Shown: positions 24,878 to 52,373 of the stretch, in pieces
Layout of the letters: every line of letters begins with the position of its first letter
Position numbering within the stretch: position 1 is the first letter of the stretch
Source of the DNA: Nitrospira sp. bin75
Lineage (GTDB): Bacteria; Nitrospirota; Nitrospiria; Nitrospirales; UBA8639
Assembly: GCA_002238765.1 (NCBI GenBank)
Contig: MPMZ01000004.1
Coordinates: 1-64,000, forward strand
Direction: 5' to 3'
Length of the DNA: 64,000 bases
The notes under the pieces: generated by a model
Databases searched by the model: none
What the model was told of the DNA's origin: nothing
The model's input: only the letters and a program-made list of their open reading frames with translations
Position numbers and translations under genes: made by a program

Positions 24878-27800
24878 ATGGTTTATTTCAATCCTTTATC
24901 CATGAAGCGATTTGCTGTTCTGGCCGGGGGAAGCCTGATAGCCCTGGCGTGCTTTTTGCTTCCTCTTGCCAACGCCGAATCCGACGTTTCCGATTCGGCC
25001 GCAGTCATCCAGACCTCGGGGATGAATCACCAGTCCCCTGAGTGGGCCGAGCGCCTCAAAGGGCAGACCATCGTTGAAAATGCCCAAGAGGGGAGAGCCG
25101 AACGCGCCGCGCTCGTTGAAAAGCAGCATGAGCGGTTGATGCAGCAAATGCAGGAAGAAATGGCTGAATCCCCCACGGGCGGCTTCGACACCATGTCCAT
25201 GATGCATCAATACGGTGCCGGCAAAGGCAACTACCTGTTGGCTTCCGATGGCGACATCGAACCGGTCGCGATGACGGGCGGTGGAAAATGCCCGGCCACG
25301 GCTCCGGTGAAGCATTACGATATTTCCGCCATCAACGTGGAAATCACGTTGAATCAATGGCTGGATTATTATCCCGGCTACATGTACGCGCTGACGGAGA
25401 ATATCGAGAACGTCCGGGAAGAGGAAGCCAAGAACGCGGAAGCTCGTGAAGAAGAAGGACACCATAATCCCGGCGGCGTCAAGAACGGGATCCAGGGTCA
25501 ATATATCCAACCGTTGGTGATTCGCGGCAACCAGGGTGATTGCGTGAAGGTCACGCTACGGAACCAGTTGGAATTCGGTGAAGACGTGAGCCTTCACGTC
25601 AATGGGTCCAGCATGGTCGTGAGCAAAACCGGCCAACCCGCGACGACGACCAACCCGGATGCCATCGCCTATGGTCCGGATGAAGATTGCGAAGAAAATT
25701 GTGAAACCACGCCCGTTGAGATGGAATGGTATATCCATCCCGATACCCAGGAAGGCGGGCGGCAATTCCACAGTTACAGTAATGACCGTGAGTTGACCGT
25801 GATGGGTCTGTTCGGGGTGTTTGTGGTGGAACCGGCAGGGTCCAAGTATTTGGATCCTCTGGGCACGGGTCCGGCTCCCGAGATGCCGAGTGGCTGGCAA
25901 GCGATTATCCAAAACGGTATGGGCCCGGATTTCCGGGAATTCGTGTTGATTTATCACGAAGTGGGTGATGAAGCCTTCCGTCCGGTGAACAAACATGGAG
26001 ACTTCCTGCCGCAACGTGATCCGTTGACCGATGCCTACCGGCCCGGGGCCAGGGCGTTGAACTACCGGAGCGAACCGTTCGGTATCAACAACATGCACGT
26101 GCAACATGAGTATTTCGGTTTTGAAGATGAATCCATGGCTTACAGTTCCTATACCTTCGGTGACGCCGGTCCCACGATCCCACGGAGTTATCTGGGCGAT
26201 CCCGCGAAGTACCGGCTGGTTCACGGCGGGTCGGAAGTCTTCCATTCCCACCATCCCCATGGCGGAGCCATCCGGTGGACCCGAAGCCCGCGGGCGGTGG
26301 ATCAGATGCCGATGTGGCACAAGGGGCAGAACGGCCCCGTGAAGTATCCGCTCATCCGTGCCAAGACGGACCGGGTGGACGTGGAAGTGATCGGGCCGTC
26401 CGAAGCGCTGGATCTGGAAACCGAGTGCGGATCGGGGCTGTGTCAATATCTGGCCGGTGACTTCCTGTTTCATTGTCACGTGGCGCACCATTACGTGGCC
26501 GGCATGTGGGGGTACTGGCGGGTTTACAATACCCTGCAAGAGCCCGGCATCCAAAACGACGTGATGGCCCCGCTTCGCGAGTTGCCCGATCGTCTCGGGC
26601 GTATTACCAGGCCGGTGACGTCCGACCAATTGGTGGGCACCACCGTGAGTTGGTTCGGCAAGAAATTCAACCTGGTCGATAACAGTCAAAAAACCGATTG
26701 GGATGCCAATCCGTCCGTCGTTCGGATTTACGATTGGGTCGAAATGCAGTTGCCGACTCGCGGTCTTCCCGGTCACACGGAAGATGAGATCGGCCAGCTC
26801 AAATCGTATGACGCGACCGTGATCGATTGGACCTGGGAAGGCGACCGTGCGATGAGTGAGAAAGAAAGCACGACCGAGAATCCCAAGTATCATCCGGACT
26901 GGCAGGGCTATGAAGCCGGAAAACGGCGGCCCATCTGGTTCGAGCCGACGACGGGCAAAGTCGCGTGGCCGTGGCTGACGCCTCACTTCGGCAAACGGGT
27001 ACCGTTTTCTCCGGACCGGAATCCGGCTCCGTGGTTGGAAATGATCCACCTGGATGAAGACGGCCAGCCGTCCGTGAAGCCGGCGAAACCGGGAGAAAAC
27101 GGGCGGTGGAGCCTGTGTCCGGACCGGGCGGGTTCCCAGGAGTACAACATCCACTTCATCAAGCTTCCGATCGAATTGTCCGCGGCCCAGGGCGATCAGC
27201 CGGCCGTGGTCGATCCGAACGGGTTGTTGTACGTCGTCCACGACGAGGAAGAAGCGATTCGGAACAATAATGATTTGAAGGTGCCGTTGGTCTTCCGTTC
27301 CAATATTTATGATTGTATGGATTGGACCTTGACCAGCGAATGGCTGGACGACGACTTTACGAATTTCCAATCTTCGAAGATCAACACGCACTTCCATTTC
27401 GTGCAGTTCGATAACCAGGCGTCCGACGGGGTGATTTCAGGATTTTCGTATGATCAGTCCGTACGGCCCTTTACCCAATTCGAAAAGAAATCGGACAAGG
27501 GGTTGCCTGTGCCCATGAACGCGAAATTCACCAAGGCGGCCGGCAAGGGCGACCGGACCATTCACGTGACGAATGCCAAACAGTATCACGTCGGCACGGT
27601 GCTGCTCGTGGGGGCGGATAACGTGGAAGGCTCGGAAGTCAAGCGGATCGTCGCCATCGGGAGTTCCGGCGAATCCGCCTCGGCAGGTGGCGGTGGCATG
27701 TATACGGTCAACCCCGGGGACACGCTGGGGGTGATCGCGAGGCAGCACGGCACCGACGTGGCGTCCCTGGTCAGCATGAACGGCCTGGCGAACGCCAACG

Positions 27801-30007
27801 TGCTTTCCGTGGGGCAGCAATTACAAGTGCCCGGGTCCGGTGGGGGAGAAGCGGCGCCGAGTGGCGGGGCGCAGACGATCACCTTCAAGACCCCGTTGGA
27901 GCATGATCATCCGGTCGGGGACATTGTGACCGTGGAATTCGTGCGACAACGCTTTTGGGTGGATGCCGACGTGGGTTCCGTATTCTGTCATGATCACGCG
28001 TTCGGCGGAACCACGTGGCCCCATGGCGCAGTGTGTTCTTTCCTGATCGAGCCGTTCGGATCGACGTGGCATGATCCGGCGACCGGTGAAGCCAAACGGA
28101 CCGGTCCGGTGATGGATATTCACACGGTTGAGCCCGTGGGGTATGGAGTCAGCGGAAGTTTCCGTGAGTTGATGGTGCAAATCATGGATACGGTTCCGCA
28201 TACGGTCAACGTGGTGACGGCCGGGAATCCTCCGGGTCAGCCCGTGGAAGTGGCGTTGGAGGCCGGTCGAACCGTGTCCTTCCAAATGCCGGCGAACGAG
28301 TTGATCAAAATGACGCCGATGCCGTTCCTCAACGGAGGGACGCATACTACGGGTGGCGCCTTGAATTTCCGGGCCGAACCCTTTGCGCAACGGTTGGCCA
28401 ACAACCCGGACACCTCGCAGTTGTTCAGCAGCAGCATTCACGGGGATCCGAGTACGGTCACGTTGCGGGCGTACCTGGGCGATGCCATCGTTTTCCGGCT
28501 TATCGACGTGACGATGAACGAGAGTAACGTCTTTACCGTGTCCGGTCATAACTTCCTGACCGAACGCTATGCCGGTGACGCCAACCGGAAAAATTCCATT
28601 CACATCGGCATTGCCGAACGATACGACCTGGTTGTGCCGCAGGCCGGTGGGACGAGACTTCAGGCCGGTGATTACATGTATTTCAACGGCCGGAGTTCGA
28701 AGTTGTCCGAAGGTTCGTGGGGTTTGATCCGGGTCATGGATAAAGAAGTGCCGGATTTGAAACCGTTGCCGAATGCGGCGTACGGCGGACCGGGACTCAA
28801 GAAGCAGTTGCCGATATGTCCCGCCGATGCCCCGGTGAAGAATTTCAACGTGGTGGCGATCGATTATCCGCAGATGGCTTTCAATCCCAACGTGGAAGAA
28901 GCCATTGAAGTGGACTTTGAGCGGACGATCGAAGTCCGGAACCCGGATGCCAAAATCTACGTCCTGGAAGAAGAGGTGACGAAGGTTTCCGGAGAATTCC
29001 AGCCCATGCCGCTCACCTTGCGGGCCAACGTGGGTGACTGTCTGAAAGTGAAACTGACCAACAAGATGAAAGAAAGCCGGGCGTCGTTCTCGGCCTTCTC
29101 CCTGGCGTTCGATCCCAAGGATTCTCAAGGGGTGAACCTCGGCAACAATCCGGGGGATCAAACCTTGGCTCCCGGAGAAAGCCGGACCTACACCTACTAT
29201 GCCGATCCGGCCGTCGGGGAAACGCAATCCCTGGTGTGGGATTGGGGTAACGTGGCCATGAACCCGCGCAACGGATTGTTCGGCGGGGTCGTGATCGGTC
29301 CCGAGGGTTCGCAGTATCGTGATCCGAAGACCGGAGCCGACATTTCCGAGAAGAACAGCTGGATCGCCGACGTGATTGTCGATCGGTCGGTCCCCGGAAA
29401 TGAACATCGGGCCAATTATCGTGACGTGGCCCTGTATTTCCAGGATGAAGACAACATCATCGGCACCAGCTTTATGCCGTACGTCCAAAACGTGGCCGGG
29501 TTGGTCGGGGTCAATTACCGGAACGAACCCTATTTGTATCGTGAAGAACAGGGGTGTTCGTTGGGCCGGATGTTCCAACCCTGTAACGTGGATGAACCGA
29601 ATGAACCGGCGACGCCGATTATCGAGGCCCATGCCGGCGACCCGGTTCGGATCCACGTGTTTGGCGCCAGCAACGAGCAAAACGGCATGTTCACGCTGGA
29701 AAAACATGAGTGGCCCATCGAGCCGTTCATGGAAGGTGCCGACCACATCAGCGTCGTGGAATTTTCCGGGTCCGAGGGGATCGACGCGTTTGTTCCCTCG
29801 GCCGGCGGCCCGTATTCCATGCCGGGGGATTACGTGTACAGCAATGCGCGCTTGCCGTATTCCCAGTCCGGTCAATGGGGGTATTTCCGCGTGTTGTCGA
29901 AGAACGATCAGCGAATCCTCCCCCTGAGCGGGGCTTCCCCGGGAGTCAAGGAAGCCAAGGAGGTTCAACCTGAACGAGGCAGCGTCCGCCCCATCTCGTT
30001 TAAATAA
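24878..30007 (+). CDS. Giant six-cupredoxin multicopper oxidase with inserted LysM domain
   Basis: 1709 residues, exported (signal peptide about 1-34), with GAAGGAGG upstream. Three two-domain cupredoxin units begin at Cys138 ('CPATAPVKHY'), Cys747 ('CPDRAGSQEY') and Cys1314 ('CPADAPVKNF'). Second domains start at Y/FR(S/A/N)EP motifs near 396, 1164 and 1547. Copper-type motifs: site C-like 'FHSHHPHGG' (His456/458/459/461), site D 'HCHVAHHYVAGM' (His532-Cys533-His534, His538, Met543: complete type-1 site), then site A-like 'HFHFVQFD' (His838/840) and site B-like 'FCHDHAFGGTTWPHG' (His1038/1040). C-D therefore precede A-B. A LysM domain (about 941-985, 'YTVNPGDTLGVIARQHGTD') with Gly/Ser linkers sits between A and B. 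Unit 3 lacks these ligands. MnxG/MofA-like Mn(II) oxidation is a possibility, not shown. Confidence 0.88.
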   Translation: MVYFNPLSMKRFAVLAGGSLIALACFLLPLANAESDVSDSAAVIQTSGMNHQSPEWAERLKGQTIVENAQEGRAERAALVEKQHERLMQQMQEEMAESPTGGFDTMSMMHQYGAGKGNYLLASDGDIEPVAMTGGGKCPATAPVKHYDISAINVEITLNQWLDYYPGYMYALTENIENVREEEAKNAEAREEEGHHNPGGVKNGIQGQYIQPLVIRGNQGDCVKVTLRNQLEFGEDVSLHVNGSSMVVSKTGQPATTTNPDAIAYGPDEDCEENCETTPVEMEWYIHPDTQEGGRQFHSYSNDRELTVMGLFGVFVVEPAGSKYLDPLGTGPAPEMPSGWQAIIQNGMGPDFREFVLIYHEVGDEAFRPVNKHGDFLPQRDPLTDAYRPGARALNYRSEPFGINNMHVQHEYFGFEDESMAYSSYTFGDAGPTIPRSYLGDPAKYRLVHGGSEVFHSHHPHGGAIRWTRSPRAVDQMPMWHKGQNGPVKYPLIRAKTDRVDVEVIGPSEALDLETECGSGLCQYLAGDFLFHCHVAHHYVAGMWGYWRVYNTLQEPGIQNDVMAPLRELPDRLGRITRPVTSDQLVGTTVSWFGKKFNLVDNSQKTDWDANPSVVRIYDWVEMQLPTRGLPGHTEDEIGQLKSYDATVIDWTWEGDRAMSEKESTTENPKYHPDWQGYEAGKRRPIWFEPTTGKVAWPWLTPHFGKRVPFSPDRNPAPWLEMIHLDEDGQPSVKPAKPGENGRWSLCPDRAGSQEYNIHFIKLPIELSAAQGDQPAVVDPNGLLYVVHDEEEAIRNNNDLKVPLVFRSNIYDCMDWTLTSEWLDDDFTNFQSSKINTHFHFVQFDNQASDGVISGFSYDQSVRPFTQFEKKSDKGLPVPMNAKFTKAAGKGDRTIHVTNAKQYHVGTVLLVGADNVEGSEVKRIVAIGSSGESASAGGGGMYTVNPGDTLGVIARQHGTDVASLVSMNGLANANVLSVGQQLQVPGSGGGEAAPSGGAQTITFKTPLEHDHPVGDIVTVEFVRQRFWVDADVGSVFCHDHAFGGTTWPHGAVCSFLIEPFGSTWHDPATGEAKRTGPVMDIHTVEPVGYGVSGSFRELMVQIMDTVPHTVNVVTAGNPPGQPVEVALEAGRTVSFQMPANELIKMTPMPFLNGGTHTTGGALNFRAEPFAQRLANNPDTSQLFSSSIHGDPSTVTLRAYLGDAIVFRLIDVTMNESNVFTVSGHNFLTERYAGDANRKNSIHIGIAERYDLVVPQAGGTRLQAGDYMYFNGRSSKLSEGSWGLIRVMDKEVPDLKPLPNAAYGGPGLKKQLPICPADAPVKNFNVVAIDYPQMAFNPNVEEAIEVDFERTIEVRNPDAKIYVLEEEVTKVSGEFQPMPLTLRANVGDCLKVKLTNKMKESRASFSAFSLAFDPKDSQGVNLGNNPGDQTLAPGESRTYTYYADPAVGETQSLVWDWGNVAMNPRNGLFGGVVIGPEGSQYRDPKTGADISEKNSWIADVIVDRSVPGNEHRANYRDVALYFQDEDNIIGTSFMPYVQNVAGLVGVNYRNEPYLYREEQGCSLGRMFQPCNVDEPNEPATPIIEAHAGDPVRIHVFGASNEQNGMFTLEKHEWPIEPFMEGADHISVVEFSGSEGIDAFVPSAGGPYSMPGDYVYSNARLPYSQSGQWGYFRVLSKNDQRILPLSGASPGVKEAKEVQPERGSVRPISFK

Positions 30008-30153: not shown

Positions 30154-31065
30154 ATGGCAGTAGGGAGGTGGATGTTGTGCCTGGTCTTGGGGTTGTTCGT
30201 GTCTCCGGGATGGGCATATGAGGAAATATCGGTCACGAACGGGGGAACCATCCGGGGGCAGGTCACGATCACCGGGGATCAACCGCGGCCCATGGCCTTC
30301 AATTTAGTGACGATCCCGGACGCGGTGTATTGTGGACGGATTTCCACCGGGACGGGATGGCGGATCGTGGAAGATTTCATCATCGGTCCGGACGGCAGCC
30401 TCAAAGACGCGGTCGTCATGCTGAACGGGATTGAAAGGGGAAAGCCGTTCGGGTTGCCCAAAGTGCTGATCGAGGCTATTAACTGCGATTTCCTGCCCTT
30501 TGTGAACGTGTTGCGCGACCAGGATGAAATTACGGTGATCAATATGGATCCCGTTGAGCACGACATCCAGGGATACGAAACCGCCCGGGCGCGCGGCGCC
30601 AGGGTGCTGTTTAATCGACCCTTGCCCATGAATCCGTTTCACAAGGTCCTGGGCATGTTGCACAGCCATAAGCATTTGCCTGGCAGGCCCATGATTCAGA
30701 AAGTTCATCTGAGGAAGGGACGCAACCTTTTCGTCATGCAATGCGGGTTTCATCCTTATATGTTCTCCTGGGGCGTGGTGGTCAAGAATCCCTATTATGC
30801 CATTACCAAGGAAAACGGGCGGTTTGAACTGACGGATGTGCCTCCGGGCGAGTATACGTTGACGGTCTGGCATGCCGGCATGAAAAAATACCTGGAGCAG
30901 AAGATGACCGTTCCCGCCAACGGTACGGTGAGCCACGACTTCCGGTATGAATCCGTGAAAGAGCGAAGAAGCGTGCATGAAATGCAGGAGAATCCCCACT
31001 TCGGCCTGGAGTTGCTGGGGGAGGGCGTGGAAATTATTCCGTCGGTCAGGCTGCAGAATCCATAA
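30154..31065 (+). CDS. Exported cupredoxin / carboxypeptidase-regulatory-domain protein 1
   Basis: 303 residues. Start 30154 has GGGAGGGA upstream; signal peptide about 1-21. The first ~210 residues form a cupredoxin-like domain with His136 ('PVEHDIQGYE') and a C-x2-H-x2-M cluster, Cys197/His200/Met203 ('MQCGFHPYMFSW'). After 'NPYYAITKENGRFELTDVPP' comes a carboxypeptidase-regulatory (transthyretin-like) domain ending near residue 280. It is probably a periplasmic copper electron carrier or scaffold. Close paralogue of the next gene and more distant paralogue of the 36252 gene. Confidence 0.8.
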   Translation: MAVGRWMLCLVLGLFVSPGWAYEEISVTNGGTIRGQVTITGDQPRPMAFNLVTIPDAVYCGRISTGTGWRIVEDFIIGPDGSLKDAVVMLNGIERGKPFGLPKVLIEAINCDFLPFVNVLRDQDEITVINMDPVEHDIQGYETARARGARVLFNRPLPMNPFHKVLGMLHSHKHLPGRPMIQKVHLRKGRNLFVMQCGFHPYMFSWGVVVKNPYYAITKENGRFELTDVPPGEYTLTVWHAGMKKYLEQKMTVPANGTVSHDFRYESVKERRSVHEMQENPHFGLELLGEGVEIIPSVRLQNP

Positions 31066-31080
31066 CGGTCAGGAGTATAG

Positions 31081-31989
31081 ATGAAATCTTTGCTGGCAAC
31101 CGGCTTGTGCCTGATCCTCTCGATCCCGGTTTCCTCTGTTTGGGGGTATGAAGTCAAAGAGATTGCCGGCGGGGGAGCGGTTCGCGGAACGGTCACCCTG
31201 TCGGGCGCGGTGCCGGACCCCAAGGCGTATAACCTGGTCATTTTTCCTGACCCCGAATATTGCGGCCGGATCTCCAACGGCAATGGGTGGCGCCTGCTCC
31301 GTGATTTTCTGGTGAACGAGCATGGCCAGGTCCTGAACGTCGTCGTGCTGCTGGAGGGGGTGCAAGAGGGTAAACCGTTTTCCCTTTCCGTGCCTCGGGT
31401 CGAAGCGCGGGATTGTCGATTTTCGCCCTTTACGACCGTCGTGCGAAGCGGGCATGGTATCGAAGTGGTGAACATGGACCCCGTGATGCACGATATCCAG
31501 GCCTACGAGACCTCGACCGCTATGGGGACCCGGGTGTTGTTCAATTCGCCGCTGCCTTTCAACCAACGTCATCGACGCGGGGATTTGCATGCGATGCACG
31601 ACCATAGACCCGGAGAATCCCTGGTCCGGCAGTTCCAGTTGAGCAAGAAACGCCGGACGTTTGTCATGCAATGCGGGTTTCACGCGTATATGCAAAGCTG
31701 GGCCATTGCCGTGGACAATCCGTACTACGTGCTGACCGACGAGAACGGGCGGTTTTCCATCAAAGACGTTCCGCCCGGGATGTATGACCTCCGGGCGTGG
31801 CATCCCGGCATCAAGCAGGTCATCAAGAAGCAAGTGACCATTGAGCCTGAGGTGAGCCTGACGGTCGATTTTCAGTTGCCTTCACCGGGACGACGCAAGA
31901 CGGCGCTCACGGTTCGGACGCCCCCCCGGTTCACGCCGGCAGCCTTGGGCCGGGAATTCACGATCGAGCCCCTTCTCGAGCGCCAGTAA
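31081..31989 (+). CDS. Exported cupredoxin / carboxypeptidase-regulatory-domain protein 2
   Basis: 302 residues, colinear with its upstream neighbour: signal peptide (1-20), His137 ('PVMHDIQAYE'), Cys198/His201/Met204 ('MQCGFHAYMQSW'), then 'NPYYVLTDENGRFSIKDVPP' and the regulatory-type beta domain. AGGAG precedes the ATG, and the 15-nt gap to the first copy indicates one operon and a tandem duplication. Its C-terminal ~35 residues are basic and differ from copy 1. Confidence 0.8.
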   Translation: MKSLLATGLCLILSIPVSSVWGYEVKEIAGGGAVRGTVTLSGAVPDPKAYNLVIFPDPEYCGRISNGNGWRLLRDFLVNEHGQVLNVVVLLEGVQEGKPFSLSVPRVEARDCRFSPFTTVVRSGHGIEVVNMDPVMHDIQAYETSTAMGTRVLFNSPLPFNQRHRRGDLHAMHDHRPGESLVRQFQLSKKRRTFVMQCGFHAYMQSWAIAVDNPYYVLTDENGRFSIKDVPPGMYDLRAWHPGIKQVIKKQVTIEPEVSLTVDFQLPSPGRRKTALTVRTPPRFTPAALGREFTIEPLLERQ

Positions 31990-36251: not shown

Positions 36252-37049
36252 ATGAGGAATCGTCGCTCGCTTACTTTGTCTGTTTTCCTTGGTGGGTTGC
36301 TGGTTGCCATGCCACTGGTTGCTCAAGCCGGCGGAACCATCAAGGGAAAAGTCATGTATTCCGGCAAACCCATTGCGGCTAAGGAGTTTGCCTTTTCCAA
36401 GTTTCCCAATCCGGCTTTTTGCAAACAGAATCCCAGTCAAAAAGGTGATGATACGCGTTTGTTGAAAGAAGTCGAAGTGGACGCCAACAAAGGGCTCAAG
36501 AATGCGATCGTGGCGGTTCGCGGGATTAAGGTCAAAGGCTTTAAGTCTACACCTGAAGTGATGGCCAAGTTGTGTGAGTTCCTGCCTTTTACCGGGGTGC
36601 TGGTGAACAAAGGGAACTTTATCGTGGAAAATGGCGATGCGGATGCCAATGATCCCAAGTCCAAGGAAGGGGTCTTGCACAATCCCCATAGCTTTGACGT
36701 GCTCGGTGCGAAATCTTCGACCCTGTTCAATATCGGGTTGGCCAAAAAAGGCGACAAGCTGGACAAGAAAATCAAAATGCGGATGGCCAGAAAAGGGTCC
36801 GTTCTCCGGTTGCAATGTGACCAGCACGAATTTATGCAAGCCTGGTTTTTGCCGGTGACCAACGGCCATTTTGGCAGGTCCGGTGGAGACGGGTCTTTTG
36901 AGATCAAGGACGTCCCCGCGGGCAAACACAAGGTCCTGGCCTGGCACCCGGTGGCCGGCAACGTGACCATGGAAGTCGAAGTCAAGGATGGCGCGACCGT
37001 TGAAGCCAACTTCGACATCAAGAAGAAAAACAAGTTCAAAGGTAAGTGA
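36252..37049 (+). CDS. Exported cupredoxin / carboxypeptidase-regulatory-domain protein 3
   Basis: 265 residues, very Lys-rich, with signal peptide 1-26 and AGGAGG upstream. Same plan as the pair at 30154-31989 but diverged: His146 in 'HNPHSFDVLG' and Cys189/His192/Met195 in 'LQCDQHEFMQAW', followed by 'GDGSFEIKDVPAGKHKVLAW'. The basic charge suggests docking to an acidic partner such as a cytochrome or the multicopper oxidase (inference). Own promoter and terminator. Confidence 0.8.
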   Translation: MRNRRSLTLSVFLGGLLVAMPLVAQAGGTIKGKVMYSGKPIAAKEFAFSKFPNPAFCKQNPSQKGDDTRLLKEVEVDANKGLKNAIVAVRGIKVKGFKSTPEVMAKLCEFLPFTGVLVNKGNFIVENGDADANDPKSKEGVLHNPHSFDVLGAKSSTLFNIGLAKKGDKLDKKIKMRMARKGSVLRLQCDQHEFMQAWFLPVTNGHFGRSGGDGSFEIKDVPAGKHKVLAWHPVAGNVTMEVEVKDGATVEANFDIKKKNKFKGK

Positions 37050-39675: not shown

Positions 39676-40764
39676 ATGCTGCATCGACTCGTACTCCGGG
39701 TGATTCCCCAACTGAACGCGGTTGTCACTGAACCCGACGTTCGAAGGCGGAAGCGTTGGGTGATGCTCGCTCCGGGGTTTGTGGCTTTTGTCCTTTATCG
39801 TCTTTTAAAGGACGTGCTCCCGTTATCCGACCCGCTGGCTTTGTTGGCGTTCAGCGGCCTCCTTTCGACGCTCACCGCGTATTGGGCGTATGCGATGGGA
39901 CGTCGGGAATCATTCGCCCGAATTTATCAAACCGATGGTCCCGGTCGTCTTCTCTGGATCGGCGGATGGATCGGGTTTGTCTACGGCGTGCAGCTTTCGT
40001 TGTTGGTGTTGGCGATCCTGGCTCTTTTCGTCGATTACCATTTTCTGGTTCACCCTGAAGGCCCGGCCATGATGGCCCTGATTATCCCTTGTACGTCGGT
40101 CACTCGTGATGCCTTTGAAATCGGCCACGTGGTCCGCATGGAATCCCAGGGTGTGCGGATGGTGACCTTTCCCGACGGCAAATCATTCCGTGAGTTACTC
40201 CAACGCGACTTTCCACATCTGGCCCGATGGGTGGCAGCGGGGTTCGTGACTGGGGGGGCGACGGCGGTCCTGTCCCGGCTCGGCTGGACCGGCGATGGGA
40301 GTGAGGTCGGCCCGGCGATTCTGGTGTGTCTCGCAGCGGCGTGTCTCGCTCATGGAGCCTTTTTGTCCGGGAAACGTCCGCTCGACGATTTCTCGGATCG
40401 CTTCAGAATAGAATCGTGGTGGGAGGCCTGCCGGTTTTGGGCCTGGCCGTGTTTGACTTTTGCATTTACATACTATTTAGTGCAATTCGGCCTTCTTGTG
40501 TTTGTTTTGCGGCTCGAGGAGGCGGCTCTGTTCGTTCACCTGGTCGTCGGTGGGGTGACCGCGGGGATGATGGCGGGGTATGGCTACTTTTTGGGGGCCC
40601 GGGTGTTTGTCGAGTCGCAAACACAAGGCGGGATCTCCGAAGGTTTGGCACGTTGTCCGTTCGTGATGGAAATTTTGGCCAAAACCGGATGGGTGACGTC
40701 GAGACCCAAGACCGGTCCCGTCGAAATCAGGCAAGGAGAGCCCTCGCGAGAGATGCTTTCATGA
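39676..40764 (+). CDS. Multi-span membrane protein of unknown family
   Basis: 362 residues with about eight hydrophobic segments (for example near 28-45, 50-70, 92-120, 188-206, 255-280 and 282-305). A soluble patch 'VRMVTFPDGKSFRELLQRDF' lies mid-protein. No family recognised. Its last four bases overlap the start of the bd-like oxidase gene (ATGA), so it is translationally coupled to it and probably serves the oxidase as partner or assembly factor. Confidence 0.7.
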   Translation: MLHRLVLRVIPQLNAVVTEPDVRRRKRWVMLAPGFVAFVLYRLLKDVLPLSDPLALLAFSGLLSTLTAYWAYAMGRRESFARIYQTDGPGRLLWIGGWIGFVYGVQLSLLVLAILALFVDYHFLVHPEGPAMMALIIPCTSVTRDAFEIGHVVRMESQGVRMVTFPDGKSFRELLQRDFPHLARWVAAGFVTGGATAVLSRLGWTGDGSEVGPAILVCLAAACLAHGAFLSGKRPLDDFSDRFRIESWWEACRFWAWPCLTFAFTYYLVQFGLLVFVLRLEEAALFVHLVVGGVTAGMMAGYGYFLGARVFVESQTQGGISEGLARCPFVMEILAKTGWVTSRPKTGPVEIRQGEPSREMLS

Positions 40765-42617
40765 AATTGTCAATTTGCCTGTTGTGTGTGCTGGGCTGGT
40801 TGCTCGTCGTTCCCATGCCGGGGTGGGCCGGTTCCGATGCCCCTGCCCTTACCGAAGACGTCTACTACAAGACCGACGGAATCCCCCAAGGCCCTCCGGC
40901 CGCGGAAACCGTATCCACCTACCCCCATTGGCAACCGCTCAATAACCGGATCATCATCTGGCTCGTAACGCAGCAGCATACGTATTTCGGCGGGTTCGTC
41001 CTGGCGCTGCCGTTGTTTGCGTTCCTCCTGGAATTTTTCGGCCTCACGCGCCGTGACCCGCAGGCAGCCCAACGCTACGACGGACTTGGTCGCGATATTC
41101 TTCGGGTCGGGGTGCTCTCGCTCTCGGTCACGGCGTTGCTCGGCAGTGTGATGCTCTGTGCGTTCGTGACGTTCTACCCCGCTTTTATGCAATATATGGG
41201 ATCGACGTTTCAACAGATGATGCCGTTGTATGCCGCGGTGTTTCTTGGTGAGTCCTTTCTCCTCGTGTTGTACTACTACAGTTGGGACCGCCTGGCCCGG
41301 GGAGCAGGGAAATGGGTGCATCTGTCGATCGGGGTGCTCGCGAATGCCATGGGAGTGCTGTTACTCCTGTTGGCCAATTCCTGGGCGTCTTTTATGATGG
41401 CGCCCGCGGGGGTGAATGCCGAGGGACAGTTTCTGGGGAACGTCTGGCATTTATTGCATTCGCCGTTATGGAATCCGCTCAATGCCCATCGGTTCCTGGC
41501 GGATATCATGTCCGGGGGAGCCGTGGTCGTGGCCTATGCGGCGTATCGGTTTTTGAAAACCCGGGTCCAGGACGAGCGGGCGTATTATGATTGGGTGGGT
41601 TACGTGTTCATTGTCGTGGTGGTGTGTGCCTTGCTCCCCATGCCTTTTGCCGGGTATTGGCTGATGCGCTCCGTGTTCGAATTCCGTCAGGAGATGGGCA
41701 TGACCATGATGGGCGGATTGTTGTCCTGGCTGTTCGTGGTTCAAGCCACCACCATCGGTGCGCTGTTTCTCGGCATCAATTATTACATCTGGCAGTCCCT
41801 GGGACGGTTGCGTGGCGGAGAACGGTATCATCCATATTTCAAATTTATCCTCGGGGGCCTGATGGTGGCGTTTCTGGTCTGGTTCACTCCCCATACCATT
41901 GCCATGACCCCCAGTGAAATGAAAGCGATGGGCGCGGCGCAACATCCGGTCATTGGGCAATTCGGGGTGATGTCCGCAAAAAACGGCGCCATTAATATCA
42001 TGATCTGCCTGACGGCCTTGAGCTATCTGTTGTATCGCCGCGCTAATCGCGTCGTGACCGTCCCTTGGGCTGCGGCGGGCAACGTGGCGATCGGGGTCTT
42101 GTTCATTGGGGGCATGGTCAATATCGTCTGGGTCGCGATTTACGGGTTTTTTATCCCCGCGCATATCCGGGTGGGCTTGTCCATTCCACAGGGGGCGACT
42201 ACGGCGACGGTCCTGCTCGGAGGGTTGGTGATCAATCATTTTCTGTTGAAGGGGAGCGAGATTCGAGGTCCCATCCAATGGGGCAGGATCTCCGTACGCG
42301 GAATGGTGGCGTTGTTCGGAGTCGCCGCGACCTTTTCCTGGGTGATGGGGTTGATGGGATATATCCGGTCAGCCGGTCGATTGGGGTGGCACGTGAATGA
42401 ATTGATGGCGGATCTTTCCCCTTGGTCCTTCACCCCTGCCATTACGTTTGCAGCCAAGATGGTGACGATCAATATGGTGGTGTTTTGGGTGTCGGTATTT
42501 TTCATGTTTTGGCTGGCCACGAGGGACAGACGGTTGGCCGTCGTGGAACAGGATGTCCCGGCCGAAACCGGAAACGTCTCTTTCGTGCAGGCGTTCTCAA
42601 GAGAGGAGTCGGCATGA
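40761..42617 (+). CDS. Cytochrome bd-like oxidase subunit, copy 1
   Basis: 618 residues: signal sequence (1-22), a short periplasmic lead ('DVYYKTDGIPQGPP'), then about 12-14 membrane helices. The pattern fits the CydA-like 'bd-like oxidases' noted in Nitrospira: 'TQQHTYFGGFVLALPLFAF', 'LLANSWASFMMAPAGV', 'PMPFAGYWLMRSVFEFRQEM', 'TPHTIAMTPSEMKAMGA', 'VMSAKNGAIN' and 'VMGLMGYIRSAGRLGWHVNE'. The canonical CydA GRQPW loop is absent, and no CydB gene is near. Haem ligands cannot be assigned by eye. Paralogue of the gene at 46151. Overlaps both neighbours by 4 nt. Confidence 0.78.
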   Translation: MKLSICLLCVLGWLLVVPMPGWAGSDAPALTEDVYYKTDGIPQGPPAAETVSTYPHWQPLNNRIIIWLVTQQHTYFGGFVLALPLFAFLLEFFGLTRRDPQAAQRYDGLGRDILRVGVLSLSVTALLGSVMLCAFVTFYPAFMQYMGSTFQQMMPLYAAVFLGESFLLVLYYYSWDRLARGAGKWVHLSIGVLANAMGVLLLLLANSWASFMMAPAGVNAEGQFLGNVWHLLHSPLWNPLNAHRFLADIMSGGAVVVAYAAYRFLKTRVQDERAYYDWVGYVFIVVVVCALLPMPFAGYWLMRSVFEFRQEMGMTMMGGLLSWLFVVQATTIGALFLGINYYIWQSLGRLRGGERYHPYFKFILGGLMVAFLVWFTPHTIAMTPSEMKAMGAAQHPVIGQFGVMSAKNGAINIMICLTALSYLLYRRANRVVTVPWAAAGNVAIGVLFIGGMVNIVWVAIYGFFIPAHIRVGLSIPQGATTATVLLGGLVINHFLLKGSEIRGPIQWGRISVRGMVALFGVAATFSWVMGLMGYIRSAGRLGWHVNELMADLSPWSFTPAITFAAKMVTINMVVFWVSVFFMFWLATRDRRLAVVEQDVPAETGNVSFVQAFSREESA

Positions 42618-43290: not shown

Positions 43291-43641
43291 ATTTCTAAGG
43301 GAACCGTTATAGACGTGCTTCTCGGCGTGGTGGTCATGGGGACGGTCGGGGTGCTCATTGGCATCCTCCTGGGCGACTCTTTTCTGTATTTTGCCACAGG
43401 GCTGGGGGTCATGTTAGGGGTCGGGATCGGTCTCATTGGCGGGCGGCGGTTTTTTTTCGGGATTTTTGCCGGAACGGTTTTAGGGGGTCTGCTGGCCTGG
43501 GCCGTTTCCGGCCCTGAAAACATTACGGTCGGGGCGGGGTCCGGCGCGGCGATGGGCGGATTTTTGGGGATTTGGATTTCGATGTTGCTTGACGTGTTTT
43601 GGCGAAAACCAGTGGAGGCCTCTTCCGACCACGAAGGGTAG
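43291..43641 (+). CDS. Small glycine-rich membrane protein, possible ATT start
   Basis: About 116 residues with three hydrophobic Gly-rich helices ('[20 protein letters not shown]', '[18 protein letters not shown]', '[18 protein letters not shown]'). The only good Shine-Dalgarno, AAAAGGAG at 43276-43283, stands 7 nt before an ATT codon at 43291 in this frame; the first in-frame GTG is at 43315, with no ATG near. The start is therefore unsure. It lies between the DUF3047 gene and the SUMF1 genes. Family unknown. Confidence 0.58.
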
Positions 43642-43696
43642 CGCCTGGACAGGAAGAGCGGGCGGTTCAATCCATCCGGGCATAGGAATCAGAAGC

Positions 43697-44611
43697 ATGG
43701 AAAATCGCGGGGTGCTTATCGGCTCCATCATCTTTGTCTTTGCCTCGTTTATCTTGATGATGGTCATGCTGATCTACGAGACGTATAAGGGGAAACAGGA
43801 AATGGACAAGTTGGTCTCGAATTCTCAAACGGCCAAACCTCGAGTTATCGCCCCGGTGAAAGTCAAGGATTATTCGATGTATCGTACATTGGTCGGCAAT
43901 GAAGGCCGTGAGATGGTCGAAATTCCCGAAGGGCCTTTTACCATGGGGCATGATCAGGAGGACCCCGATGAAGCCCCTGCGCATCCGGTGTACGTGAAGA
44001 CGTACTTCATCGATCTCAAGGAAGTCACCCAGTCGGAATACGCGCGTTTTGTCAAGATGACCAAGCGGGAGCAACCTCAGGTGCCGGTTTTTGAAGAAGA
44101 TATTGCCAAACTTATGGACCCCGATTTTCCCGTGGTGGGCATTGGTTGGAATGATGCCTTTGCCTATTGCCGGTGGGCAGGGAAGCGGTTGCCGACCGAA
44201 GCCGAATGGGAAAAGGCCGCTCGTGGTGAGGGCCGGCGACTCTATCCTTGGGGGAATGAGTTCAACTACATGGTTTCCAATATTGACGGAGAGGACGATG
44301 GGTTCAAGTATTTGTCGCCCGTGGGCTCTTTTGAAGGCGGGCGTAGTCCGTATGGGGTCTACGACATGACGGGAAACGTTGCCGAATGGGTGGCAGATAC
44401 CTATGACGCCCAATATTATCAAAATTCACCATTTCGCGATCCTCCCGGTCCGGACAGCACGGAATTTAAAGTCATTCGAGGCGGAACTTGGCGAGATTCC
44501 AAACTCAACGCGAGATTGACTAAACGGTTTTCAGCCAAAATGTGGAGAACCGACGCGACGATCGGGTTCCGTTGCGCCCAGGACGTCGAGGCCGTACGAC
44601 AAGTATCCTGA
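43697..44611 (+). CDS. Membrane-anchored SUMF1/FGE-sulfatase-domain protein 1
   Basis: 304 residues. An N-terminal transmembrane helix (about 6-28) is followed by a periplasmic formylglycine-generating-enzyme (SUMF1) fold: 'MVEIPEGPFTMGHDQED', 'FIDLKEVTQSEYARFV', 'RLPTEAEWEKAARGEGRRLY', 'GVYDMTGNVAEWVADTY', 'VIRGGTWRD' and 'IGFRCA'. The cysteine pair of true formylglycine-generating enzymes is not evident, so this may be a binding or structural variant. Such genes occur beside respiratory clusters in Nitrospira. Close paralogue of the next gene. Confidence 0.87.
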   Translation: MENRGVLIGSIIFVFASFILMMVMLIYETYKGKQEMDKLVSNSQTAKPRVIAPVKVKDYSMYRTLVGNEGREMVEIPEGPFTMGHDQEDPDEAPAHPVYVKTYFIDLKEVTQSEYARFVKMTKREQPQVPVFEEDIAKLMDPDFPVVGIGWNDAFAYCRWAGKRLPTEAEWEKAARGEGRRLYPWGNEFNYMVSNIDGEDDGFKYLSPVGSFEGGRSPYGVYDMTGNVAEWVADTYDAQYYQNSPFRDPPGPDSTEFKVIRGGTWRDSKLNARLTKRFSAKMWRTDATIGFRCAQDVEAVRQVS

Positions 44612-44648: not shown

Positions 44649-45557
44649 ATGGACGGGAGATTGAAACTGATCCTGCTTGCCGTGATTTTATTCATGGTGG
44701 GCATGCCCATGTCGGGAATTCTGCGTGGGACCAAGGCTCCTCCCCCTGATCCCGAGCTTGCGGAGGTGGTCAAACCCGTGCAGGCGACCGGGACTTCTCC
44801 CTCAGACCCACCCCAGCCGGTCATCCAAGAAGAAATGGTGTTTATTCCTTCCGGGCAGTTTGTTCAGGGGACCAGCCAGGGCGGGTTTAATGAACGCCCC
44901 GAGCGTCTCGTGACCCTCGAGGGATTCTGGATTGACCGGTTTGAGGTGACGAACCATCACTATCGCGTATTTGTTGAGCAGACAGGTCATCGAAAACCGG
45001 GCCCTCCGTCTCGCTATGCCAAACGGTTAGCCCAATTGCGTGGGCCCAATCAGCCTGTTGCCTACGTCTCCTGGCATGACGCCGATGCGTATTGCAAATG
45101 GAAGGGAAAACGTCTGCCCCAGGAAGCCGAATGGGAAAAGGCGATGCGAGGGATAGACGGCCGGTTGTGGCCCTGGGGAAACTCCCCGAGAATCCACAAG
45201 GCCAATCTGGGAGGGGTCGAAGACGGCTATGAAGCTACGGCCTCCGTTGGCTCGTTCCCATTGGATCGAAGCCCTTTCGGTGTGCATGACGGCTTCGGAA
45301 ACCTGATGGAATGGACCGACAATTGGTATGAAGAGCAGACTCGCGATCGCAGTGAACCCGGAGAAGCGAATTTTGCCGATCGTGGAGGATATAAGACGCT
45401 ACGCGGTGCCGGGTATACCAGCTATGGAAGCGACTTGAGGATTACGGCCAGAAATTTCATGGTTCCCGACTTTCGGGATGAAACCATAGGCTTTCGTTGT
45501 GCGGCGTCGGGGCGGGAGCCACCTGAGCGCACGCTGGCCGCTCGTCCCCAGGATTAG
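44649..45557 (+). CDS. Membrane-anchored SUMF1/FGE-sulfatase-domain protein 2
   Basis: 302 residues; N-terminal hydrophobic helix (about 5-24) and Pro-rich linker, then the SUMF1 fold: 'MVFIPSGQFVQGTSQGG', 'WIDRFEVTNHHYRVFVEQ', 'RLPQEAEWEKAMRGIDGRLW', 'GVHDGFGNLMEWTDNWY', 'TLRGAGYTSYG' and 'IGFRCAA'. It lies 37 nt after its paralogue. Its 3' end faces the convergent small gene at 45574. Confidence 0.87.
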   Translation: MDGRLKLILLAVILFMVGMPMSGILRGTKAPPPDPELAEVVKPVQATGTSPSDPPQPVIQEEMVFIPSGQFVQGTSQGGFNERPERLVTLEGFWIDRFEVTNHHYRVFVEQTGHRKPGPPSRYAKRLAQLRGPNQPVAYVSWHDADAYCKWKGKRLPQEAEWEKAMRGIDGRLWPWGNSPRIHKANLGGVEDGYEATASVGSFPLDRSPFGVHDGFGNLMEWTDNWYEEQTRDRSEPGEANFADRGGYKTLRGAGYTSYGSDLRITARNFMVPDFRDETIGFRCAASGREPPERTLAARPQD

Positions 45558-46053: not shown

Positions 46054-46150
46054 GGAGCCTCGTTAGCAGCAGTCATCCTGAAAAACTGGACAATTGGCAT
46101 AAAAGGTTTTTTATTCTTTGAATAATTTCAAAGAAAGAAGGAGGTTGGTC

Positions 46151-48115
46151 ATGGGTCGCCTCAAAAGTCGACAGTCCGGGAAGAAATTCCTGGCAGTCAC
46201 TGGTCTTTTTGCAATGGGAGTCATGCTGTTGCTCCCGATCTTTGTGGCACTGCCGGCCTTGGCCGGTGGGGGTGCTCCCGCAGCAGGCGGGCCGCCTCCC
46301 GATGTCGTCGCCGCCGAGGAAGCTGAAGGGGTGGAGGGCGAAGAAGCAAAAGTCGAAATCGGGAGAGACGTCTATTACAAAACAGAGGGCCCCGTCGTCG
46401 GTGCGCCGGCTCCAAAGACTGCCGATACGGAAGAATTTTATCCCCGCTATAATTTCGAAAGCCGGGTCCTTCTCTGGGTGGCCAATCAGCAGCATCTGTA
46501 CTATGGCAGCTTTGTGTTGGCCGTGCCGATCTTCTGTATGTGTATCGAGTTTGCCGGGTTGGTGAGCAAGGACAAGGCGATGGCGAAGAAGTATGACCAA
46601 TTGGCGTACGACTTTGTGAAAATCAGTCTGACCGCCTACTCGCTGACTGCCATCCTCGGTGGTATTCTTATCTTCACGTTCCTGACGTTGTACCCTGCTT
46701 TCTTTGGGTATCTTTCCAGCATTTTCCGCCCGGTGATGCACATCTACGCCTTGATGTTCGTGGCGGAAAGCGGAACCCTCTACATCTACTACTATGGATG
46801 GGACAAGATGAAAGATGGGTTGCTGAAATGGCTCCATTGCAGCATGTCGGTGGTGTTGAACGTCATCGGGACGGTGTTGATGTTCCTGGCCAATTCCTGG
46901 ATTGGTTTCATGATGTCACCCGCGGGGGTTGATGAGCAGGGACGATTTCTTGGAAATATCTGGCACGTGCTTCATACGGCGCTCTGGAATCCCCTGAACG
47001 TGCACCGGATTCTCGGGAATATGGCCTTTGGTGGCGGCGTGGTGGCGGCGTATGCCGCGTACCGGTTCCTGTCGGCAAAGAATGATGAAGAGCGTGCCCA
47101 TTTCGATTGGATGGGATATATCGCGATGTCGCTGGGCGTGGCCTTCCTGATCCCTCTGCCGTTCGCCGGCTATTGGCTCATGCGCGAGGTGTATGCCTAC
47201 CGTCAGCAAATGGGAATTACCCTGATGGGCGGGCTGTTGGCTTGGCTGTTCATCATTCAGGCCACCATGATCGGCATCCTGTTTTTGACGACGAACTATT
47301 ATCTCTGGCAAGCCCTCGGAAGAATGACCGGAGGGGAGAGGTTCCAGCGGTATATCAAGTATTTTGTGTTCATTTTAGTCGTCGGACTATTGGTCTTTAT
47401 CACTCCCCATACTATCGTGATGACTCCGGCTGAATTGAAGGCCATGGGAGGCCAGCAGCATCCCGTATTAGGGAACTATGGCGTGATGTCTGCTAAAAAT
47501 GGGGGGATTAACGCGATTATCATGACCACGATCGCCAGTTTCATATGGTATCAGCGTGGCAACAGGGTCCCGGCGGTGAAATGGGCAAAATTCGGAAATA
47601 TCTTCCTGATCACCTTCTTTGTGGTGGCCCATCTGAATAACATTTGGGTGGCCTGTTACGGGTATTTCATCCCGGCGAACGTTCGAATCGGCCTCTCTGT
47701 TCCACAGGTGGCCGGAACGCTCTCGTGCCTGTTCTTCGGATCGGCGTTAAATCTGGCCATGCTGAGTAAGTCCAGGGAACTCGGACCGATTCGATGGGGT
47801 CAGATTGCGCCACGATCACAGTATGCCCTGATTATGCTGGCAACGGCCTTTACGTGGATGATGGGATTGATGGGGTATATCCGGTCATCGGTGAGGTTGT
47901 TCTGGCACGTCAATGAGATTATGCGGGACAATTCGCCTTGGGCGTATACGCATACCATTGGGTTTGGGGCGAATGTGATCTCCTTTAACGTGTTGTTCTT
48001 CTGGATCACTATTCTGTTTGTCTTTTGGCTTGGAGCCCTGGGTGCCAAGAAAGCGCCCGTGCCCGCGACGCAACCTGTTCCTGGTGGGGCGCCGCAACCT
48101 GCAACTGGTCATTAA
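46151..48115 (+). CDS. Cytochrome bd-like oxidase subunit, copy 2
   Basis: 654 residues. GAAGGAGG precedes ATG 46151; a TTG-started frame from 46118 is less likely. Signal sequence (about 15-39), then a Gly/Pro/Glu-rich periplasmic lead ending 'DVYYKTEGP', then the same helices as copy 1: 'NQQHLYYGSFVLAVPIF', 'LANSWIGFMMSPAGV', 'PLPFAGYWLMREVYAYRQQM', 'TPHTIVMTPAELKAMGG', 'VMSAKNGGIN' and 'MMGLMGYIRSSVRLFWHVNE'. Conserved membrane His residues recur at matching places. The tail is Pro-rich. No CydB or haem-copper subunit is adjacent. Electron donor is probably the cytochromes c or quinol that follow. Confidence 0.82.
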   Translation: MGRLKSRQSGKKFLAVTGLFAMGVMLLLPIFVALPALAGGGAPAAGGPPPDVVAAEEAEGVEGEEAKVEIGRDVYYKTEGPVVGAPAPKTADTEEFYPRYNFESRVLLWVANQQHLYYGSFVLAVPIFCMCIEFAGLVSKDKAMAKKYDQLAYDFVKISLTAYSLTAILGGILIFTFLTLYPAFFGYLSSIFRPVMHIYALMFVAESGTLYIYYYGWDKMKDGLLKWLHCSMSVVLNVIGTVLMFLANSWIGFMMSPAGVDEQGRFLGNIWHVLHTALWNPLNVHRILGNMAFGGGVVAAYAAYRFLSAKNDEERAHFDWMGYIAMSLGVAFLIPLPFAGYWLMREVYAYRQQMGITLMGGLLAWLFIIQATMIGILFLTTNYYLWQALGRMTGGERFQRYIKYFVFILVVGLLVFITPHTIVMTPAELKAMGGQQHPVLGNYGVMSAKNGGINAIIMTTIASFIWYQRGNRVPAVKWAKFGNIFLITFFVVAHLNNIWVACYGYFIPANVRIGLSVPQVAGTLSCLFFGSALNLAMLSKSRELGPIRWGQIAPRSQYALIMLATAFTWMMGLMGYIRSSVRLFWHVNEIMRDNSPWAYTHTIGFGANVISFNVLFFWITILFVFWLGALGAKKAPVPATQPVPGGAPQPATGH

Positions 48116-50543: not shown

Positions 50544-52373
50544 ATGAGCAAGAGCAGATATGGAATCAACGTGGCCCGGTGGGGGGTGTGCCTGGGGTTC
50601 AGTGTCCTGCTGGGTTTTTTGGGCCTGCCCCTGAGCAGCATGGCCCAGGAGGACCTTCCAGAGGGCTTCAAGCAGCAAGGTTTACCATCGCCCCCGCCGG
50701 CCGAGCAGATTGAAGCCGGCAAGCGGGTATACTTTACCAAATGCGTGTGGTGTCACGGGGTGGAAGGGGCCGGGGACGGCCCGGGGGCGGTACGGCTGTG
50801 GCCGCGGCCGCGGAACTTCAACGCCGGCACCTTCAAGATCCGGCACACGGCCAGCGGGCAATTGCCCCTGATCGACTTGGACCTCTTGCAAACCGTGACG
50901 CACGGGCTGCCGGGGTCGGCGATGCCGTCGTGGGAAGGCATTCTCACGGAGCAGCAACGCAAGGACGTGCTGGCGTTCGTGACCACGCAATTGGTGCAGG
51001 ACCGTTCGTGGCAAGACGAAGAATTTGAGGAATTTTTCGTGCTGGAGTTGGAGAAACTCGCCCCGAAAGAAGGCACACCGGAGTCCATCAAGCGCGGCTC
51101 GGAATTGGTGGTGGAGAAGAAATGTATCGAGTGTCACGGGCTGGAAGGCCGTGGCGACGGGAACGCGTTCAACCTGAAGGACGACTGGGGCTTCAGCATC
51201 CAACCGGCAGACTGGCACAAATGCTGGAACTTCCGGGGCAGCCGTCAAGATCCGTACAATGTGAAGAACATTTTCCGCACCTTCTCCACGGGACTGAACG
51301 GCACTCCGATGCCGTCGTTCGCGGACAACACCAGTGTGGACGAGCGGTGGGACATCGCCAATTACGTCAACTCGCTGTGTGAGCGGGAGCAGGAGATCAA
51401 AGCGCCGCAAGGCACGGTGACCGACGAGACCGCGCTCACCTTCTCGACCTCGCAGCCGTTGGGGATTGATCCGTTGACGGACAAGCCCAAGAGTAACTTT
51501 GTGGTTCCATCGAAATTCGTGGAAGGCGACCTCCCCACGGACGAAAACGACGAGCGCTGGAACCTGATTCCCCGGCGATGGATCGCCATGGGCGGGCAGA
51601 TTACGCATAAGCCGAGGAACTTCGTGAACCGGATCGACGATATGTGGGTGCGAGCGTTATACAACGAGACGCATATCGAGTTCATGTTCCGGTGGGATGA
51701 CCGGACCAAGAGCATTCAGGAGGATGAAGTGGACTGGGATCCCACGGAAGTGAACCTGGAGGATTATGGGGTGGAAGAGCAAGCCCCGCAGGGCACGACG
51801 TTTGAAGAAGACCCGTTCCATCAGGAATCGATTGCCGCCAAACAAAAAGACGGCTATGCCGTGTACAACGACGGGGTCGCGTTCCAATTTCCGATCAAAT
51901 GGCAAGAACTCCCGGCACCCAGGAAGCCACGGTATTTCTGGGGGGATGAAAGATTTGCCGCCGACATTACCAAATGGACGGCGGATGGGACCCTGGGGGT
52001 GTACGAAGGCACTGGCTGGGATCAGGACTTCACCGAAGTCGACTTTCAGGAGGAAGTCGAAGTGGTGAAAGCCGAGTGGGCCAACGGGCAGTGGACGGTG
52101 ATCGTCAAGCGGCCCTTGAAGGGGGACTACGACGAAGTCGCGTACCTGGAGCAGGGCAAATACATCCCGATGGTCTTCTTTGCCTGGGACGGGCACAACG
52201 GGGACGTGGGGAGGAAGATGGCAGTGTCCGCGTTCTATTACCTGGTGATGGAACCCCCGATTCCGATGAGCACGTACATCTATCCGGGGCTGATTACCGT
52301 CGGAATCGTGATTATTGAAGGCTGGGTGTTGGGGCGGCGCGCCAACCGGCGCAAGGACAAGGGTCAGGCCTGA
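50544..52373 (+). CDS. Di-haem cytochrome c fused to NxrC/EBDH-gamma-like haem b domain
   Basis: 609 residues. Signal peptide (about 15-35), two cytochrome c domains (CVWCH 'FTKCVWCHGVEGAGDG' with Met in 'GSAMPSW'; CIECH 'EKKCIECHGLEGRGDG' with Met in 'GTPMPSF'), then a beta-sandwich domain of the ethylbenzene/DMS-dehydrogenase gamma type that binds haem b ('RWIAMGGQITHKPRNFVNRI', 'ALYNETHIEFMFRWDD', 'KRPLKGDYDEVAYLEQGKYI'). A C-terminal membrane helix ('YPGLITVGIVIIEGWVLG') anchors it. Nitrite oxidoreductase gamma candidates (NxrC) in Nitrospira have this domain, but no alpha or beta subunit genes are present here. Confidence 0.85.
   Translation: MSKSRYGINVARWGVCLGFSVLLGFLGLPLSSMAQEDLPEGFKQQGLPSPPPAEQIEAGKRVYFTKCVWCHGVEGAGDGPGAVRLWPRPRNFNAGTFKIRHTASGQLPLIDLDLLQTVTHGLPGSAMPSWEGILTEQQRKDVLAFVTTQLVQDRSWQDEEFEEFFVLELEKLAPKEGTPESIKRGSELVVEKKCIECHGLEGRGDGNAFNLKDDWGFSIQPADWHKCWNFRGSRQDPYNVKNIFRTFSTGLNGTPMPSFADNTSVDERWDIANYVNSLCEREQEIKAPQGTVTDETALTFSTSQPLGIDPLTDKPKSNFVVPSKFVEGDLPTDENDERWNLIPRRWIAMGGQITHKPRNFVNRIDDMWVRALYNETHIEFMFRWDDRTKSIQEDEVDWDPTEVNLEDYGVEEQAPQGTTFEEDPFHQESIAAKQKDGYAVYNDGVAFQFPIKWQELPAPRKPRYFWGDERFAADITKWTADGTLGVYEGTGWDQDFTEVDFQEEVEVVKAEWANGQWTVIVKRPLKGDYDEVAYLEQGKYIPMVFFAWDGHNGDVGRKMAVSAFYYLVMEPPIPMSTYIYPGLITVGIVIIEGWVLGRRANRRKDKGQA

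Follow-up and report, generated by a model that had tools for sequence, protein, structure and literature searches.

The window studied here, a 64,000-nucleotide stretch of the Nitrospira sp. bin75 genome (contig MPMZ01000004.1, positions 1 to 64,000), encodes an MnxG-like six-domain multicopper oxidase that carries a LysM module nested inside its third domain. We consider it probable that this protein is a periplasmic oxidase tethered to peptidoglycan, which would pass electrons from a type-1 copper to a trinuclear copper center at the boundary of domains 2 and 3 and from there to O2. A sequence-only reading of the same DNA had singled out the order of the copper-ligand motifs, and that order is correct, but the LysM module and the beta-barrel around it were missed. 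The implied novelty of the motif order does not hold, because the arrangement has been published (PMC3600357) and so has an MnxG-like oxidase in Nitrospira (PMC3578206). The nested LysM is the most unusual feature of the protein. The oxidase gene is organized as follows.

24878..30007, + strand: MnxG-like six-domain multicopper oxidase with nested LysM (1709 aa, ATG start)
24878..24976, + strand: N-terminal Sec-type signal peptide, residues 1-33, expected cleavage between ANA and ES (read from the sequence)
25268..26557, + strand: unit 1, domains 1-2, residues 131-560, with the predicted type-1 site and half of the trinuclear site (profile comparison)
27098..28777, + strand: unit 2, domains 3-4, residues 741-1300, with motifs A and B and the nested insertion (profile comparison)
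28790..29947, + strand: unit 3, domains 5-6, residues 1305-1690, without a copper-ligand motif (profile comparison, motifs)

The three two-domain units are related to one another. An internal triplication had been proposed from unit starts at Cys138, Cys747 and Cys1314 and from [YF]R[SAN]EP motifs at 396, 1164 and 1547; all of these are present at those positions, and hhalign comparisons between the units gave E-values of 5e-18 (units 1 and 2), 1.5e-24 (units 1 and 3) and 5e-29 (units 2 and 3). Across 66 aligned sequences, an invariant Cys opens each unit and a second invariant Cys lies in a (G/Y)DC motif at 222, 813 and 1388. Unit 1 contains a Cu-oxidase_3 match at residues 204-319. Unit 2 is preceded by a linker of about 180 residues (561-740) and holds an insertion of about 150 residues; Pfam returned nothing above threshold for the linker or for the beta-barrel within the insertion. 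Unit 3 has no copper-ligand motif, in line with the ligand-free unit that had been suggested, and no HxH motif occurs anywhere in domains 5-6. The copper-ligand motifs all lie in the first two units.

26243..26260, + strand: motif C, HxxHxH, with H456 (type 1), H459 (type 2) and H461 (type 3) assigned by homology (motif search, alignment)
26471..26506, + strand: motif D, HCHVAHHYVAGM, with H532, C533, H534, H538 and M543 (motif search, alignment)
27389..27397, + strand: motif A, HxH, with H838 and H840 (motif search, alignment)
27989..27997, + strand: motif B, HxH, with H1038 and H1040 (motif search, alignment)

The motifs are complete and run in the order C (456-461), D (532-543), A (838/840) and B (1038/1040). 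Motif C had been placed correctly but labeled only "C-like"; it is an exact HxxHxH, and the trinuclear ligands it supplies are therefore His459 and His461, with His456 as a type-1 ligand, rather than the His456/458 pair named previously. His458 is a conserved extra histidine beside these ligands. The oxidase contains a single HxxHxH and a single HCHxxxHxxxxM, together with the HxH motifs at 838 and 1038. Among 20,000 shuffled versions of the residues, 4.4% contained an HxxHxH and not one contained the D motif. Following the canonical multicopper-oxidase assignment, we take H456, C533, H538 and M543 to bind the type-1 copper and H459, H461, H532, H534, H838, H840, H1038 and H1040 to form the trinuclear site. 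All twelve ligands are invariant in 66 of 66 aligned sequences. Domain 1 still shows traces of an A/B pair (H240 in 61 of 66 sequences and H298 in all 66), which is what a degenerated ring would be expected to leave. As a separate observation, the residue just before motif B (1037, window 27986-27988) is Cys in 30 of the 66 sequences, among them almost every LysM copy, and Trp in the other 36; the nearby Cys1053 could be the partner of this cysteine.

We looked for the closest relative of solved structure and found Bacillus MnxG (PDB 9bxa), which phmmer matched at E 9.8e-73 over stretches between residues 209 and 1682. Profile alignments of the oxidase with MnxG gave E-values of 2.5e-77 and 4.3e-82. 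The C-D-before-A-B order that the sequence-only reading had attributed to MnxG is borne out by this alignment, which pairs all four motifs one-to-one: HVFHYH, HCHLYPAFGIGM, HIH and HDH of MnxG lie opposite window motifs C, D, A and B. Both proteins consist of three two-domain units, share the C-D-A-B order and lack motifs in the last unit. They differ in length, with 1227 residues in MnxG and 1709 in the window oxidase; MnxG has only a short turn at the position of the beta-barrel and LysM, and its linker between domains 2 and 3 is much shorter. An AlphaFold2 model of residues 125-1300, built from 29 sequences that are 73-96% identical over that stretch, reached a mean pLDDT of only 36.8. Because of this low confidence, the predicted convergence of the trinuclear ligands on one site between domains 2 and 3 rests on the one-to-one homology to MnxG. 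In the alignment, Ala340 of 9bxa chain A (HCHLYPA340) falls at the type-1 histidine position occupied by H538, and the deposited MnxG chain therefore looks like a type-1 variant.

The same architecture is known from other six-domain oxidases. A 2013 survey places the trinuclear site at the domain 2/3 boundary in every bacterial six-domain oxidase that it analyzed and also in green-algal ferroxidases such as Chlamydomonas Fox1, and assigns the bacterial proteins a type-1 copper in domain 2 only (PMC3600357). The window oxidase is predicted to share this trinuclear position and the single domain 2 type-1 site with those bacterial proteins but differs in its LysM, since no nested LysM is among the features reported in the part of the survey available to us. 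We rejected an arrangement of the ceruloplasmin/hephaestin type, with type-1 sites in domains 2, 4 and 6 and a trinuclear center formed by domains 1 and 6, because the only HCH lies in domain 2 and domains 5-6 contain no HxH motif. Detoxification of metals by Fe(II) or Cu(I) oxidation, in the manner of ceruloplasmin, Fox1 or CueO, is an improbable role. Fox1 is a ferroxidase with the same domain 2/3 position (PMC3600357), but no iron permease or copper-efflux gene was found among the annotated neighbors that we read, and the six-domain similarity is to MnxG only, with no ceruloplasmin match at E up to 10 in the search of solved structures.

MnxG works together with MnxE and MnxF. The annotated neighbors of the window oxidase that we read are CupA/B, a HEAT-repeat protein and a DsbH-like protein, none of which was recognized as MnxE or MnxF. 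The NCBIfam MnxG equivalog model (NF041487) scored 119.9 bits against a cut-off of 3100. Because the cut-off is missed so widely, we call the protein MnxG-like rather than MnxG, and the Mn(II) substrate cannot be transferred to it. The neighbors and this score both speak against a true Mn(II) oxidase like that of Bacillus, which would produce periplasmic Mn(III)/Mn(IV) as a defense against reactive oxygen. We regard such an enzyme as possible, though we lean against it. In its favor, MnxG alone among proteins of solved structure is a close relative, this activity was put forward for the homologue in N. gracilis and Ca. Nitrospira defluvii by those who described the Nitrospina genome (PMC3578206), and MnxG genes have been reported in Nitrospirota metagenome-assembled genomes from ferromanganese sediments (PMC10367259). 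However, we found oxidase matches in 58 of 60 relatives of the window genome within the order that holds Nitrospira, and this distribution does not point to manganese-rich habitats. We found no proven substrate for these near-universal proteins, and their activity would bear on whether nitrite oxidizers drive environmental manganese oxidation.

The genes downstream of the MnxG-like oxidase include the following.

30154..31065, + strand: CupA, predicted blue-copper site (H...CxxHxxM) plus a carboxypeptidase-regulatory-like domain (Pfam, alignment)
31081..31989, + strand: CupB, a CupA paralogue with the same blue-copper ligands (Pfam, alignment)
36252..37049, + strand: CupC, a third protein, more remotely related, that carries these ligands too (alignment)
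40326..42617, + strand: cytochrome bd-like oxidase subunit I homologue (open reading frame; the true start may lie inside)
46118..48115, + strand: second cytochrome bd-like oxidase subunit I homologue
50544..52373, + strand: NxrC-like protein, in which a cytochrome c is joined to a type II DMSO-reductase heme b subunit domain

The carboxypeptidase-regulatory-like domain is the one feature of CupA, CupB and CupC that Pfam names, yet essentially all sequences share H137...C198xxH201xxM204 (numbered along the stretch from 30151), and these proteins are predicted to hold a complete amicyanin-like blue-copper site. Gene order is conserved across the family: DUF192, Rieske, I42 inhibitor-like and class IV aminotransferase genes are followed by the oxidase, CupA, CupB, a gene of unknown function, HEAT-repeat, DsbH-like, CupC, methyltransferase, DUF420 and PCP_red genes. 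Two cytochromes c are encoded further along in the window, and another contig of the genome carries an NxrA-superfamily open reading frame of 1,182 aa. Two adjacent formylglycine-generating-enzyme-like (FGE-sulfatase) proteins (window 43589-44611 and 44649-45557) are encoded between the two bd-like oxidases.

Work on the Nitrospina gracilis genome described a periplasmic multicopper oxidase resembling the manganese oxidase of Bacillus SG-1, with a conserved counterpart in Ca. Nitrospira defluvii. It lies in a nitrite-oxidoreductase gene cluster that also holds cupredoxin-like proteins and a bd-like oxidase, and Mn(III)-based protection from reactive oxygen was suggested as its role (PMC3578206). 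Compared by description, those oxidases and that of the window are alike in being MnxG-like and in clustering with cupredoxin-like proteins and a bd-like oxidase. The Nitrospirales copies that we read are followed by these Cup genes as well. Besides its cupredoxin-like proteins and bd-like oxidases, the window cluster includes cytochromes c and an NXR-type subunit (NxrC-like). From the bd-like oxidases and the NxrC-like and NxrA-like proteins, we conclude that the organism is most likely a nitrite oxidizer and that the locus most likely corresponds to the published cluster.

This setting raises the idea of a copper-chain oxidase, in which reduced CupA/B/C feed the type-1 copper and electrons are dumped on O2 beside the nitrite-oxidation chain. 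A Cup gene with a complete H...CxxHxxM site lies directly downstream of the oxidase in 52 of 58 copies, and the cluster is shared with bd-like oxidases, cytochromes c and the NxrC-like protein. Adjacency is no proof of electron transfer, however; the Cup proteins could instead deliver copper, and periplasmic O2 reduction would be wasteful for an energy-limited chemolithotroph. We therefore judge a dedicated copper chain to be unlikely, while some pairing of the oxidase with the blue-copper proteins is possible.

The reading we prefer is that of a wall-tethered MnxG-like oxidase, which would work as follows. The enzyme would be secreted and probably periplasmic. Substrate electrons would enter at the domain 2 type-1 copper (H456, C533, H538, M543) and cross the H-C-H bridge (H532-C533-H534) to the trinuclear copper at the domain 2/3 interface, where O2 would be reduced to water. 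Domains 4-6 would form a copper-free scaffold that closes the ring. In the window's family, the LysM on the barrel inserted in domain 3 would tether the oxidase to peptidoglycan. A role linked to nitrite oxidation may consist of Mn(II) or Fe(II) oxidation against reactive oxygen, or of electron exchange with CupA/B/C. It is a long shot that some Nitrospirales nitrite oxidizers use the domain 3 LysM to fix an MnxG-type oxidase to the wall beside blue-copper proteins, as a stationary O2-reducing or metal-oxidizing station serving the nitrite chain.

The tether proposed here is a domain within a domain.

27500..27943, + strand: small beta-barrel insertion, residues 875-1022, shared by the Nitrospirales homologues that we read (alignment, predicted fold)
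27701..27832, + strand: LysM, residues 942-985, within the beta-barrel, with Gly/Ser linkers on both sides (Pfam, predicted fold)

The LysM matches Pfam PF01476 with E 3e-13 and 49.8 bits against a gathering threshold of 20.9. In the Nitrospirales homologues read, an insertion of about 70 residues comes after SVRPF (866) and before the strand that runs into motif B; in the LysM form, the LysM splits this insertion between EVKRIVAI and TLTF. We modeled residues 738-1098 with AlphaFold2. The cupredoxin part was poor, and the barrel and LysM were confident: ten-residue blocks of the insertion mostly had pLDDT values of 63-92, with two linker blocks at 29-40. With the LysM left unaligned, VIA-align matched model residues of about 138-285 (protein 875-1022) to small beta-barrels from phage tail and tailspike proteins and from a capsule lyase; 9n71 scored Z 10.3 (3.2 A across 81 residues) and 7w1d scored Z 9.5 (rmsd 1.8 A across 72 residues). 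EF-Tu domains also matched, at Z of about 7. Model residues 203-248 superposed on the LysM of 4xcm with Z 9.2 and an rmsd of 0.6 A over 45 residues. These fold matches place the LysM inside a barrel that lies inside a predicted cupredoxin domain, the outer domain being identified as cupredoxin by homology rather than from the model.

LysM modules are usually terminal or arranged in tandem on hydrolases. The window LysM resembles peptidoglycan/chitin-binding modules of the 4xcm/4uz2 type in sequence and predicted fold but is a single module nested in a barrel within an oxidase domain. Our literature search found no paper linking LysM to an MnxG-like oxidase; its coverage was incomplete, and novelty is thus not proven.

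We then examined how the oxidase and its LysM are distributed. In an even sample of the phylum, 65 of 198 genomes had an oxidase match at E<=1e-30, none of them outside the window's class, and viral contigs contained no relatives. All 49 genomes of the window's family have at least one copy, and the window genome has one only. The exact LysM segment occurs in 16 of 270 genomes of the class (E<=1e-12), all from the window's family, which also supplied the more diverged LysM copies; no copy read outside that family has a LysM. All 23 LysM copies with enough flanking sequence lie at the aminotransferase-flanked locus, that is, in the nitrite-oxidation cluster, compared with none of 28 copies elsewhere, and five copies at this locus lack LysM; these counts are not independent, owing to shared descent.

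In a tree built without the LysM columns, the 27 LysM copies fall within a 44-tip clade and occur on either side of its root (support 0.95). The tree by itself does not let parsimony decide between single and repeated gain. The identical insertion point and similar linkers of all copies disfavor repeated independent gain, and we therefore favor one gain followed by losses. LysM was apparently lost at least once: copies L084 and L085, of the same genus and at the same locus, cleanly lack it and are nested among LysM copies. Among close relatives, dN/dS was about 0.11 for the LysM core, 0.13 for the barrel part, 0.10-0.25 for the linkers and 0.02-0.04 for most of the oxidase. These values indicate that the LysM is under purifying selection. 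Its faster evolution and apparent loss also indicate that it is not essential to catalysis.

The same observations could fit a LysM that is a passenger insertion with no tethering role, which is absent from the homologues read outside one family, cleanly missing from L084/L085 and quicker to change than the rest of the oxidase. We think this unlikely, because the core is constrained, the motif is kept in 27 copies spanning several genera, and the predicted fold superposes so closely on a LysM structure. The tethering idea is directly testable with the natural LysM-bearing and LysM-less copies found at one locus, such as L084/L085, and the LysM variant provides a handle on where the oxidase sits.

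Individual loci add to this history. The L082 oxidase (open reading frame on the + strand, from about 6422) has a LysM at the syntenic locus, yet in the tree it clusters with LysM-less paralogues. Its position changes from one segment tree to another, which suggests a mosaic produced by gene conversion. In genome G004 (L063 and others), oxidase matches are fragmented across contigs, some with in-frame TGA, and could represent a pseudogene or an assembly error. L092 carries tandem LysM-less oxidase paralogues, in open reading frames from 3179 and 8975, which share about 61% and 75% identity with the window protein.
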